Shown: positions 22,299 to 38,320 of the stretch, piece after piece
Numbering within the stretch: the stretch's first letter is position 1
Layout of the letters: the number at the start of each line of letters is the position of its first letter
Origin: Vicinamibacterales bacterium
GTDB taxonomy: Bacteria; Acidobacteriota; Vicinamibacteria; Vicinamibacterales; Fen-181
NCBI GenBank assembly: GCA_036504215.1
Contig: DASXVO010000047.1
Span: forward strand, 1-38,353
Direction of reading: 5' to 3'
Length of the DNA stretch: 38,353 bases
Notes under the pieces: generated by a model
What the model saw: the letters and a program-made list of their open reading frames with translations, nothing else
What the model was told of the DNA's origin: nothing
The model's database searches: none
Program-made: the position numbers and the translations under genes

Positions 22299-22301
22299 TC
22301 A

Positions 22302-22541
22302 GGTGCTGACGGTGCCACGGGTGCTGGTGGTGCCGAGGGTGCGAGTGCTGAAGGTGCTGTAGGTGCTGCTGGTGCCGTAGGCGCGGCAGGTGCGGCTGGT
22401 GCACGACATGGGCACCACGGCACTAACAGCACCGCACGCTGAGCACCCGTAGCACCGATAGCAGGGCACCGATAGCGCCCGTAGCACCATGAGCACTGGC
22501 ACCTTGAGCACCCGTAGCACCGATAGCACCACCAGCACCCG
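22302..22541. repeat. Paired inverted 9-base arrays between gyrB and gyrA
   Basis: The left arm (22302-22406) is about twelve units of GGTGCNNNN, nearly all nine bases long. The right arm (about 22411-22541) is some fifteen units of GCACCNNNN, the complementary core, mostly nine bases with a few shorter. The transcript could fold as one long hairpin in many registers. The right arm ends four bases before the gyrA ATG and leaves no Shine-Dalgarno sequence there. No gene in the 246-base gap. Confidence 0.85.
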
Positions 22542-22544
22542 ACC

Positions 22545-28079: not shown

Positions 28080-28086
28080 GGACTCC

Positions 28087-28205
28087 AGGCGGCTAGGCGG
28101 AAAGGCGGCGAGGCGACCAGGCAGCAGCAGCGCAACAGGGCGGAAAGGCCGAACGGCGGTCCGCCCCGCCTGCCCGCCCGTCCGCCTATTCGCCTACCCG
28201 CCCAT
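28087..28205. repeat. Paired inverted 8-base arrays between pcrA and glmS
   Basis: The left arm starts at 28087 with four exact 8-base units AGGCGGCT, AGGCGGAA, AGGCGGCG and AGGCGACC, then looser copies to about 28150. The right arm (28161-28205) carries CGCCTNNC-type units, the complement of the left core. Together they fill the whole gap between the glmS stop and the pcrA start and could fold into one GC-rich hairpin. Confidence 0.75.
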
Positions 28206-30062: not shown

Positions 30063-30080
30063 AGGGAGGTTACTCTCTTA

Positions 30081-30242
30081 AAGGATGAAGGAGGAAGGAT
30101 GAAGGAGGAAGGAGGAAGGAGGAAGGAGGAAGCACGAAGGAGGAAGGATGAACACGGAACATCATCAGCCGTCCTGCCTCGGTCCTCATCCTTCCGTCTT
30201 CATCCTTCCGTCTTTGTCCTTCCGCCTTCATCCTTCATCTTC
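30081..30242. repeat. Paired inverted heptamer arrays between glmS and glmU
   Basis: The left arm, 30081-30150, is ten exact-phase heptamers (AAGGATG, AAGGAGG x6, AAGCACG and others). The right arm, 30187-30242, is eight heptamers of the complementary type (CATCCTT, CCGTCTT, TGTCCTT, CCGCCTT). About 36 unrelated bases separate them. The right arm contains the glmU stop codon and its last dozen codons. The arms could pair into a long purine/pyrimidine hairpin. Confidence 0.9.
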
Positions 30243-33540: not shown

Positions 33541-35199
33541 GTGTACTCATCCGAACCGTTGCACCATTTCGTCGACGATTACCTGCGTTATCTCTACGAG
33601 ATCCAGCCAACGGGCGCGGCGCTCGACGGCGTGCACACGAACGACGATCTCCTGGAGGACTTCAGTCGAAACGCGCTCGAAGGACAGGCGCGGGCACTGT
33701 CCGGCTTCGCCCGCCGCCTCGACGAGATCTCGGTTGATGGTCTGACCGAGACCGAGCGAGTCGAGCATCCGGTCATTGCCGCCACGATCCGGGCGCGGAT
33801 CTTCGAACTCGAAGAGGTCCGGACGTGGGAGCGCAATCCGCAGCACTACGCCGACGTCCTTGCCACCAGCCTGGCGACCCAGGCGATCTTCCCGTACGCC
33901 GCCGAAGACGAACGCGCGCGGCGCGTGCTGTCCAAGCTGCGTCAGACGCCGCGCCTGCTGCAGGCGGCCCGCGATAACATCAAGGACCCGCCAGGCATCT
34001 ACGCGAAGGTCGGGATGGAGACCATGCGCGGCGTGCTGCGGTTCATCGAGCGCGATCTGCCGCGGGCGTTCTCCGGCGTCGATGACTTGCATCTGCTGGG
34101 CGATCTGGCCGACGCGTCGGTCGAGGCGGCGGATGCCATCAAGGGTTATCAACGCTACCTCGAGGAGGAGGTCGCGCCCAAGGCGCGTGCGTCGTTCCGT
34201 CTCGGCCGCGAGAAGTTCGAGCGCAAGCTGAAGCTGGAAGAAGGCATCTCGGTCGGAGTGGACAAGCTCCTCGCCATCGCGGGACGCGAGCTGTGGGCCG
34301 TGCAGGAAGAGTTTCGCCGCGTGGCGTCGCGCATCGACAACGGGGACGCGCGGACGGCGTGGCGCAAGGCGAAGGACAACCATCCGGCTGCCGGCCAGCT
34401 CGTGGGAACCGCGCAGGGGCAGCTCGAGAAGTTGATGACGTTCATCCAGCGGAACGACCTCGTGACGATTCCGCCGGGCGAACCGCTGCTCGTGGCGCCG
34501 ACGCCGGATTTCTACCGCTGGACGTTTGCCAGCATGTGGACGCCGGGGCCGTTCGAGACCAAGCCGACGCGTGCGTACTACTACGTCACCGACGCGGATC
34601 CGTCGTGGCCGGCGGAGCGCCAGGCCGAGCACCTGCTCGACTTCAACTTCGCCACGCTGTGGTCCATTTCCATCCACGAGGCGTACCCGGGACACTACCT
34701 GCACGCCCTGCACCTGCGGCAGGTGGATTCGAAACTGCGCAAGTCGATGCTGTTCTCGCCCGCGTCCACGGTCGAAGGCTGGGCGCACTACTGCGAGCAG
34801 ATGATGATGGAGGCGGGGTTCGAAAAGGGTGACCCGTACGTCCGCCTCGGACAACTGGCCGAAGCCCTCATCCGCCTCGCCCGCTTCATCGTCGGAATCC
34901 GGCTGCACGCCGAGGACATGTCGGTCGAAGCGGGGATGCGTTTCTTCCGCGACGAGGCGTTCATGGAGGAGTCGGGCGCGCGACGGGAAGCCGAGCGCGG
35001 CACGTTCGACCCAACCTACCTGGTCTACAGCGCCGGGAAGCTGATGGTGCAGAAGCTGCGCGCAGATTACAAGGCGCAACTCGGTGCGAAGTACTCGCTG
35101 CGCGCGTTCCACGACGCGTTCCTCGGCAATGGGACGCTGCCGATCTGGGCGATGCGAAAGCTGATGCTGCCGGGGGATAGGGGTGATGTGCTTGAATGA
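33541..35199 (+). CDS. DUF885-family putative metallopeptidase
   Basis: 552 residues from GTG 33541. I recognise the DUF885 family by its overall pattern and by HEAYPGHYLHALHLR (HEAYPGH at 379-385) followed by EGWAHYCEQ (412-417). These resemble zinc-binding HExxxGH plus Glu elements, so a metallopeptidase role is inferred. GAGGG lies 7 bases before the GTG; a frame open further upstream crosses the rsmI promoter and start. No signal peptide is evident, so the protein may be cytoplasmic, whereas several relatives are lipoproteins. The stop codon is immediately followed by a heptamer array. Confidence 0.88.
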   Translation: MYSSEPLHHFVDDYLRYLYEIQPTGAALDGVHTNDDLLEDFSRNALEGQARALSGFARRLDEISVDGLTETERVEHPVIAATIRARIFELEEVRTWERNPQHYADVLATSLATQAIFPYAAEDERARRVLSKLRQTPRLLQAARDNIKDPPGIYAKVGMETMRGVLRFIERDLPRAFSGVDDLHLLGDLADASVEAADAIKGYQRYLEEEVAPKARASFRLGREKFERKLKLEEGISVGVDKLLAIAGRELWAVQEEFRRVASRIDNGDARTAWRKAKDNHPAAGQLVGTAQGQLEKLMTFIQRNDLVTIPPGEPLLVAPTPDFYRWTFASMWTPGPFETKPTRAYYYVTDADPSWPAERQAEHLLDFNFATLWSISIHEAYPGHYLHALHLRQVDSKLRKSMLFSPASTVEGWAHYCEQMMMEAGFEKGDPYVRLGQLAEALIRLARFIVGIRLHAEDMSVEAGMRFFRDEAFMEESGARREAERGTFDPTYLVYSAGKLMVQKLRADYKAQLGAKYSLRAFHDAFLGNGTLPIWAMRKLMLPGDRGDVLE

Positions 35200-35254
35200 G
35201 CGCTAGCGGCTAAGCGCTAAGTGCTAGTGCTGGGTGCTGGGTGCTGGGTGCGCG
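35200..35254. repeat. Heptamer array (GCGCTAA to GTGCTGG) after the DUF885 gene
   Basis: Units of seven bases follow the stop codon at once: GCGCTAG, CGGCTAA, GCGCTAA, GTGCTA (six bases), GTGCTGG three times, GTGCGCG. The GTGCTGG unit is the same as in the array at the end of selD. Confidence 0.85.
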
Positions 35255-35289
35255 GGAAGGCGCCAGGCGGGGAAGCAGGGCTGGGAGCA

Positions 35290-36832: not shown

Positions 36833-38122
36833 ATGCTCGACCCTGCATTCGTTCGTGATCATCCCGATGCCGTGCGGACCGGTCTTCGCAGCCGCGGCAT
36901 CGACCCCGATGCCGACCTCGAGGCGCTCGCGACCTTCGAGTCGCGCCGGCGCGAGGTGATTCTCGAAGTCGAGGAACTCAAGCGCCTGCAGAACCGTTCG
37001 GGCGAAGAAGTGGCGCGAGCCAAGAAGGAGGGCCGCGATCCGAGCGCGGTGTTCGCCGCGAACCGCGAGCGCGGGCAGCAGATCAAGCAGCTCGAAGCCG
37101 ACCTCGACGCCATCGAGCAGCAGCGACGCGCCCTGCTGCTCACCATTCCGAACCTGCCGGCCCCGCACGTGCCGGTGGGCGCCAGTGCCGCCGAGAACAG
37201 GGAAGTGCGCCGCGTCGGCGAGCCCCGCGCCTGCGACTTCGAGCCCCAGGCGCACTGGGATCTCGGGCCGGCGCTCGGCATCATCGACTTCGAGCGGGCG
37301 ACGAAGGTGTCGGGCGCGCGCTTCTCGTTTCTGATGGGCGACGGCGCGCGGTTGTCGCGCGCGCTCATCAACTTCATGCTCTCGTTGCACACCCGTGAGC
37401 ATGGCTATACCGAGGTCGAGCCGCCCTTCATGGTCAGCGCCGAGACGCTGACCGGCACGGGCAACCTGCCGAAGTTCGAGGCCGACCTGTTCAAGATTGC
37501 CGGCGAGTGGGACCTGTACCTGATTCCGACCGCCGAGGTTCCACTGACGAACCTCCACCGAGGCGAAATTCTCGACGGCCGCCAGTTGCCGCTGAAGTAC
37601 TGCGCCTACACGCCGTGCTTCCGCAGCGAGGCCGGGTCGTACGGAGCCGACGTGCGCGGCCTGATCCGCCAGCACCAGTTCGACAAGGTGGAACTGGTCA
37701 AGTTCGCGGCTCCCGACCGCTCGTACGAGGAACTCGAGGGGCTGACGCGGGACGCCGAGCAGGTGCTCGTGCGCCTCGGCCTGCCGTATCGCACGATCAT
37801 GCTGTGCACTGGCGACATGGGCTTCGCGTCGGCCACGACCTACGACATCGAGGTATGGCTCCCGAGCCAGAAGACGTACCGCGAGATTTCGTCCTGCAGC
37901 AACACCGAGGCCTTCCAGGCGCGGCGCGCGAACATCAAGTTCCGGCCGGACGGCAAGGGCAAGGCTGAGCTCGTCCACACGCTCAACGGGTCGGGACTCG
38001 CCGTCGGCCGCACGCTGATCGCCGTGCTCGAGAACTACCAGCAGAAGGACGGCTCGGTGATCGTTCCCGAGGCGCTGCGTCCCTGGATGGACGGGCAGGA
38101 GATCATCACGCCCCGGCGGTAG
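36833..38122 (+). CDS. serS: Seryl-tRNA synthetase
   Basis: Charges tRNA-Ser, and in selenocysteine users also tRNA-Sec, with serine. 429 residues. The N-terminal antiparallel coiled coil (about 30-105; [20 protein letters not shown] and [20 protein letters not shown]) grips the long variable arm. Class II catalytic motifs are [20 protein letters not shown] (motif 2) and [20 protein letters not shown] (motif 3), with [17 protein letters not shown] and [20 protein letters not shown]. The protein ends EIITPRR. A tRNA-Ser gene lies 108 bases downstream on the same strand. No strong Shine-Dalgarno is seen. Confidence 0.98.
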
Positions 38123-38126
38123 ATGT

Positions 38127-38226
38127 CAGGATCCAGGAGTCAGGAGCCGGAATCCAGGCGCCGAAACGCAGAGGCTGTCATCTGGCTTCTCACTCCTGTA
38201 TTCTGACTCCTGACTCCTGACTCGTG
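38127..38226. repeat. Paired inverted heptamer arrays between serS and tRNA-Ser
   Basis: The left arm, 38127-38161, is five exact-phase heptamers (CAGGATC, CAGGAGT, CAGGAGC, CGGAATC, CAGGCGC). The right arm, 38192-38226, is five complementary heptamers (ACTCCTG, TATTCTG, ACTCCTG, ACTCCTG, ACTCGTG). Thirty unrelated bases form the loop. The array ends four bases before the tRNA. Confidence 0.9.
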
Positions 38227-38230
38227 ATGC

Positions 38231-38320
38231 GGAGAGGTGGCCGAGTGGTTGATGGCTCCGGTCTTGAAAACCGGCGTGGGGGAAACCCCACCGGGGGTTC
38301 GAATCCCTCCCTCTCCGCCA
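38231..38320 (+). tRNA. tRNA-Ser(UGA)
   Basis: Class II tRNA with a long variable arm. The acceptor stem GGAGAGG pairs with CCTCTCC, followed by G and an encoded CCA. The anticodon stem CCGGT/ACCGG encloses CTTGAAA, placing anticodon TGA at 38265-38267. The variable arm is GTGGGG...CCCCAC and the T loop is GTTCGAATC. It has a 7-base acceptor and UGA anticodon, so it is not tRNA-Sec. It lies downstream of serS in the same direction. Confidence 0.97.

Follow-up and report, generated by a model that had tools for sequence, protein, structure and literature searches.

Opposed heptamer arrays between serS and tRNA-Ser in a Vicinamibacterales bacterium probably belong to a genome-wide class of degenerate intergenic repeats

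The 108-nt gap that separates the serS stop codon (ending at 38122) from the start of tRNA-Ser(UGA) at 38231 consists mostly of two opposed arrays of seven-base units. In our judgement these arrays probably form an inverted pair and represent a class of degenerate heptamer arrays spread across the genome; the pair would be either tolerated or, at most, active as a generic 3' stem. What was observed for this class is the arrays themselves, a bias towards intergenic sequence, a seven-base period, and the differing words that fill the same gap in relatives. As intergenic heptameric repeats with inverted pairs, the serS-gap arrays fall within a broad kind already described; what appears new is the lineage in which they occur, how many words they use, and how these are replaced at one homologous gap. 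Throughout, the window denotes the whole 38,353-nt stretch of DNA that was analysed, and the features needed here are the following.

36833 to 38122, plus strand: serS (serine--tRNA ligase, 429 aa), an open reading frame with stop codon TAG at 38120-38122
38127 to 38161, plus strand: left array, purine-rich, five degenerate CAGGAGT-type heptamers (sequence, inverted-repeat search, lag-7 matches)
38162 to 38191, no strand assigned: loop of 30 nt with two weaker right-type units (sequence)
38192 to 38226, plus strand: right array, pyrimidine-rich, five degenerate ACTCCTG-type heptamers (sequence, inverted-repeat search, Tandem Repeats Finder)
38231 to 38320, plus strand: tRNA-Ser, anticodon TGA (ARAGORN; RF00005)
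30063 to 30240, no strand assigned: another inverted heptamer pair, in the gap flanked by minus-strand glmU and glmS

The serS product scores 531.5 bits against NCBIfam TIGR00414 (serS; cut-off 301.65), and serS relatives are 57 to 90% identical to the window's serS. Read in order, the left-arm units (38127-38161) are CAGGATC, CAGGAGT, CAGGAGC, CGGAATC, and CAGGCGC, and the right-arm units (38192-38226) are ACTCCTG, TATTCTG, ACTCCTG, ACTCCTG, and ACTCGTG. The units are degenerate, the fourth and fifth on the left matching CAGGAGT at 3/7 and 5/7 positions, and Tandem Repeats Finder recovers 3.1 left copies and 5.1 right copies at 73 to 75% match. The first-pass annotation described five against five inverted heptamers around a 30-base loop. 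Its coordinates and counts hold in the phase that it used, though the count is a soft one: two weaker right-type units (4/7 each by manual count) lie at 38178-38191, just 5' of 38192, so that an exact "five against five" depends on the cut point. The four bases that it placed between the right arm and the mature tRNA 5' end agree with the ARAGORN start of 38231. The best gapless inverted match pairs 38126-38158 with 38195-38227 (33 nt, 82% complementary). At gathering score, tRNA is the sole Rfam match in the whole window, and the gap is intergenic and does not lie in a group I intron.

Both the arrays of the gap and their inverted match exceed chance. At lag 7, 55 of 101 comparisons across the gap match, whereas 3000 dinucleotide shuffles average 25 and never exceed 40. 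Lag-7 identity is 0.54 over the gap, against 0.13 to 0.33 at those lags from 3 to 20 that are not multiples of seven; it is 0.61 over 38125-38159 in the left array and 0.75 over the 35 nt of 38195-38229 in the right. The inverted score of 21 was reached by none of 300 dinucleotide shuffles. As RNA, the gap has a predicted minimum free energy of -52.3 kcal/mol, compared with -34.0 +/- 3.8 for shuffles (z -4.9; 0/200 as good), and the main stem of the predicted fold has 29 pairs. The hairpin that had been proposed at these arms is thus strongly predicted by RNA folding relative to shuffles.

Heptamer arrays are a genome-wide feature of this bacterium. A 24-base CAGGAGT pattern, with at most 3 mismatches allowed, is matched 30 times across the genome, at 22 distinct sites, while its reversed control has no match. 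Across contigs C16 and C59 and the window, we counted 27 lag-7 runs in 72 kb of intergenic sequence versus 5 in 665 kb of coding sequence, with 0.2 in shuffles; in the same sequences, lags 14 and 21, as multiples of seven, give 25 and 18, and lags 9, 18, and 8 are also raised (19, 13, and 8). In a 1.34-Mb genome sample, whose genes were called with a purpose-written hexamer-based script in place of a standard gene finder, a slightly looser cut yields 66 arrays in 58 of the 714 gaps of at least 25 nt. The commonest words, AAGGAGG and AAGGATG, account for 22 of the 66 arrays; CAGGAGT, CAGGAGC, GTGCTAG, GAGAGCC, GGGATCA, and others also occur. Clustering the words by single linkage merged 55 of the 66 arrays through intermediate words and was not used. 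Arrays often lie against genes, 28 of 59 being within 5 nt of a gene boundary or overlapping one (7 gap-length arrays left out), and they run in either direction next to genes.

By gene orientation, the gaps that hold arrays in our own sequence number 36/462 codirectional, 13/115 convergent, and 9/137 divergent. Divergent gaps hold arrays less often in the relatives (1/124 versus 22/280 codirectional and convergent gaps, serS gaps left out; p 0.004), which is not seen in our own sequence (9/137 versus 49/577 others; p 0.60), and the pooled comparison gives p 0.014. Inverted partners are a separate matter, and single-sided arrays are the rule in our own sequence. A strict hairpin screen over gaps of up to 1200 nt returned 19 hairpins, of which 2 are heptamer-built, both in the window; it was replaced by a looser screen at an inverted match score of at least 12. 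That score is reached in 5/56 of our own array gaps (two of the 58, each longer than 700 nt, left out) and is commoner in the array gaps of relatives, at 13/33. Such paired gaps comprise 15/61 codirectional, 3/19 convergent, and 0/9 divergent array gaps; the comparison of divergent gaps with the rest (0/9 versus 18/80) involves small numbers and gives p 0.19.

A mirror-repeat control scored as high as the inverted matches, with 23 versus 18 gaps at score 12 (19 versus 5 in our own sequence and 4 versus 13 in relatives). The score-12 screen by itself therefore does not prove pairing beyond chance. In our opinion the mirror control is an unfair null because purine-rich arrays are themselves mirror-symmetric. 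That the window's own pair exceeds chance follows from folding and from the inverted-match shuffles. Among gaps of 40 to 180 nt in our own sequence, 5/35 with arrays fold strongly (z < -3), as do 21/345 others.

The second inverted pair of the window, at 30063-30240, is built from arrays of AAGGAGGA/AAGGATGA followed by TTCATCC/TTCCGTC, and the glmU-glmS gaps of L031, L032, L033, L034, L035, and L037 hold no lag-7 array.

We examined 83 serS loci including the window (L031-L083, which are 53 of 80 loci, and L147-L175, which are 29 of 30), of which 69 were distinct and usable; record titles in the 80-locus set are mostly Acidobacteria or Vicinamibacteria, a few naming other groups. Three loci of the same genus carry other heptamers in the serS gap, namely GGAATCA/TTCTGTC in L032, CTTGGCT/GAGAGCC in L033, and GAAGATA in L031. 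By matching identity and duplicate removal, these are the set formed by genomes G001, G004, and G002; in a fourth same-genus locus, L034, the sequence stops before the serS gap. The serS genes of L031 and L032 are 96.7% identical, and the two gaps share TTCTGTATTCTGTTCTGCGTC as the end of the right arm, yet the left arm and the number of right units differ. The L032 gap folds with z -4.4, and the L031 gap (z +0.25) folds no better than shuffles.

The CAGGAGT pattern occurs in 6/6 genus or family relatives, with its reversed control in 1/6, and by manual count in 23/60 relatives, with the control in 17/60. Because the reversed control spells another heptamer, it matches widely among the 60, and only the genus and family result is informative. 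Over whole sequences, the density of lag-7 runs per Mb is 40 in our own sample and 32 in L035-L079; it reaches 177 in four same-genus loci, which hold 11 runs, and is 9 in 13 other loci grouped as Acidobacteriota, which hold 2. Seventeen loci of other phyla have 7 runs in 246 kb, or 28 per Mb, and other lags give 1.6 to 6.4 runs per Mb. The excess in loci of other phyla indicates that the class extends beyond this lineage.

At 29 of the 69 loci (our own counted), serS is followed within 450 nt by a same-strand tRNA-Ser gene, and the spacing is 2 to 26 nt in 9 of these 29 and at least 40 nt in the other 20. In L031-L079, arrays are commoner in codirectional gaps after serS than in those elsewhere in these loci (8/28 versus 18/216; p 0.004), and strong folds (z < -3) are likewise commoner after serS than in the remaining codirectional gaps (10/26 versus 16/154; Fisher p 0.0008). 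The strong folds after serS lie before a tRNA in 6/15 gaps and before something else in 4/11, and the 15 serS-tRNA gaps considered separately give Fisher p 0.006; in other gaps of the relatives, strong folds occur in 8/41 convergent, 3/85 divergent, and 1/5 other pre-tRNA gaps. This enrichment is suggestive, the locus having been picked for its hairpin and the relatives not being independent.

If our preferred reading is correct, arrays would grow and change their wording by replication slippage, and an array would sometimes acquire a partner in inverted orientation, probably through fold-back copying, after which each arm would drift and be homogenised independently of the other. The gap would be transcribed within a serS-tRNA-Ser transcript, and the arms would fold into an imperfect stem of about 29 bp. 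Such a stem would have no intrinsic terminator action; it would be tolerated, or would at most provide the serS message with a generic 3'-terminal stem that might block 3' exonucleases or offer a double-strand cut site. With the hairpin strongly predicted and strong folds enriched after serS among relatives, the 3' end of serS may be modestly influenced at the RNA level.

From 20 hairpins picked by eye, 15 were long enough for the units of one arm to be shuffled, and in 14 of these 15 the observed unit order pairs no better than shuffled order at the 0.05 level. The fraction of shuffles as good as the observed order is 0.03 for the glmU-glmS pair, 0.12 for L004, 0.12 for the L033 serS gap, 0.25 for our own serS gap, and 0.31 to 1.0 for the remaining 11. 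We also considered copying from arm to arm in register, but nothing in the unit-order shuffles points to one arm having recently been copied faithfully from the other. Mismatches carry no RNA-strand bias, with 14 G-U versus 15 A-C on the sense strand of 9 hairpins, and we rejected G-U pairs as evidence of RNA-strand selection on this count. Seven of these 9 lie in codirectional gaps; L061 (convergent) and L051, whose contig ends without a downstream gene call, were read on the serS strand. Neither unit order nor mismatch type shows any sign of fine-tuned pairing. A purine-first order of arms was likewise considered as a rule: the left arm is purine-rich in 11/11 of our own listed inverted pairs (several with arms of 6 to 13 nt) and in 5/5 from the looser screen. 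We draw no conclusion from this order because the relatives do not follow it, as the purine fractions of L033 (0.38), L061 (0.44 to 0.49), L044 (0.45), and L051 (0.50) indicate.

Intrinsic terminators and REP-type 3' stems also place a stem after a stop codon, REP/RAYT elements being conserved palindromes associated with a RAYT transposase, and the first-pass annotation proposed that the hairpin could end the serS transcript. In favour of a terminator, a long, stable stem is predicted directly after the serS stop codon. No T-tract, however, follows the stem on either strand, and the arms are tandem heptamers whose sequence is not conserved between relatives, which sets the serS stem apart from both of these known kinds. 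A terminator scan listed none in the gap, although its 8-nt loop limit would have missed this stem anyway. The tRNA-Ser(UGA) that lies directly after the right arm is the single copy among 46 tRNAs found in the 90-contig assembly, and the scan found no sigma-70-like promoter of at least 9/12 matches on the plus strand before it; a weak candidate read manually at 38175-38204 (CTGTCA at 38175 in the loop, a spacing of 18 nt, TATTCT at 38199) has 8/12. The spacing of 2 to 26 nt in 9/29 linked loci also speaks against termination here and suggests, from gene arrangement, that serS and tRNA-Ser are co-transcribed. An intrinsic terminator is accordingly unlikely, and we place very little probability on the hairpin terminating serS; the case cautions against taking every strong intergenic hairpin for a terminator. 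The companion proposal, that the hairpin is a leader element shaping 5' processing of tRNA-Ser by RNase P, draws on the right arm stopping four bases short of the tRNA in this genome. As a general role it is not supported, since arrays lie within 150 nt upstream of 3/46 tRNAs versus 42/1031 protein genes (p 0.44), and the serS-gap array is alone in abutting its tRNA; in L031, L032, and L033, moreover, the last 16 to 22 nt or so before the tRNA are free of array. We regard this role as highly improbable. Downstream, arrays lie within 150 nt of 2/46 tRNAs versus 54/1031 protein genes.

A tentative, rather unlikely alternative is a selected 3'-UTR stem, acting as an exonuclease block or an RNase III-type cut site, that would protect or trim the serS mRNA 3' end and free the tRNA-Ser precursor, with the arrays as its raw material. 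The strong predicted folding of our own gap is consistent with it, as are the 10/26 relatives' serS gaps with z < -3, whose sequences are unrelated and some of which (L035, L050, L059) fold strongly without heptamers; the enrichment of arrays and of strong folds after serS favours some selected RNA role over mere tolerance. Against it, the gaps of the close relatives L031 and L075 fold no better than shuffles, mismatches lack a G-U bias, nine linked pairs have gaps of 2 to 26 nt that are too short for such a stem, and serS was chosen after the fact among relatives that are not independent. We consider it improbable that the cell actively inserts heptamer arrays into gaps and converts both arms to a new word, for instance by means of a polymerase or a reverse transcriptase whose short template slips or folds back; if it did, the place of the stem and its seven-base architecture would persist in the lineage while the sequence is replaced. 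In a last reading, a sequence-specific protein would bind the arrays at many repeated sites, an idea put forward for the TAACTGA repeats of Beggiatoaceae; the presence of one word at 22 places in the genome would fit it. Several words coexist, however, the words of one gap change between close relatives, and arrays stand in either orientation next to genes, all of which make this exceedingly improbable.

Several described repeats can be set beside those of the serS gap. Rehm et al. (2015; PMC4692102) describe intergenic heptameric repeats of the words GGGAATC and GGGGA(C/T)T in Xanthomonas and Nostoc. The Xanthomonas repeats are degenerate, genome-wide, mostly intergenic, and rarer between divergent genes; their length varies between relatives, convergent inverted pairs number 70 in Xcc and 75 in Xac, with few in Nostoc, and their function is said to remain to be found (PMC4692102). 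Like them, the serS-gap class is degenerate, seven bases long, present in many copies, mainly intergenic, variable in length between relatives, and found in inverted pairs, and a tandem, degenerate unit of length seven is the feature that the serS gap has in common with repeats of this type. The GGGATCA array class found here (C16 152857 and L025) resembles the word GGGAATC (PMC4692102). Unlike the repeats in that account (PMC4692102), those in this member of the Acidobacteriota comprise several words, most without GGG runs, and different species use different words in one homologous gap. The serS-gap unit, of CAGGAGT type, has GG only, and the word GGGAATC with G-quadruplex capacity was not found in it, which places the array in the broader heptamer class and not in the G4 subclass.

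Two further systems invite comparison. The P6b stem-loop of the Nostoc tRNA-Leu(UAA) intron is built of Class I (TDNGATT) or Class II (NNTGAGT) heptamers (PMC4476775). There, too, complementary degenerate heptamers form both arms and one word class is replaced by another in place, but P6b lies in a group I intron, whereas the serS stem is intergenic and without a known host RNA (PMC4476775). The Beggiatoaceae TAACTGA repeats form 169 direct sets and one indirect set, mostly just upstream of start codons (MacGregor 2015; PMC4679880); they are likewise intergenic heptamer tandem repeats at many loci, although, unlike the serS-gap class, they consist of one fixed word (PMC4679880). A literature search for intergenic heptamer repeats in Acidobacteriota found no report, most subscription papers being outside its reach. 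Tandem repeats of exactly seven bases are favoured between genes of unrelated bacteria, and this lineage offers a useful test bed for asking why, with several words per genome and a differently worded serS-tRNA-Ser gap in close relatives, including a species pair whose serS genes are 96.7% identical and whose arms differ.

Several further arrays were observed along the way. In the window, the gap adjoining glmS holds inverted arrays of period eight at 28080-28205 (AGGCGGCA / CCCGCCTA); as at serS, this gap varies among relatives, L033 and L034 having heptamer hairpins that differ in their words and L031 and L032 a gap of 2 nt. A single-sided heptamer array at 35199-35260, of AGCGCTA and then GTGCTGG units, begins beside a stop codon. 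Between two codirectional gene calls, 22299-22544 is densely repetitive at periods of 9, 18, and 33 (GGTGCTG..., AGCACCC...) and is possibly coding on the other strand. Arrays of GGAGGAA/GGATGAA run into ATG at C59:270018-270096, C59:216796-216853, and C16:164182-164249 (G000), so that the repeat supplies an RBS-like GGAGG together with the start codon. At 11284-11370 of L053, a tRNA-Ser-like sequence follows serS and a heptamer array; ARAGORN reports no tRNA there, and the sequence, which seems to lack a T arm, is possibly a tRNA remnant. Shortly downstream of tRNA-Trp, a long inverted hairpin of GGGATCA-type heptamers occupies 435-600 of L025 (G000 C61; also L227).
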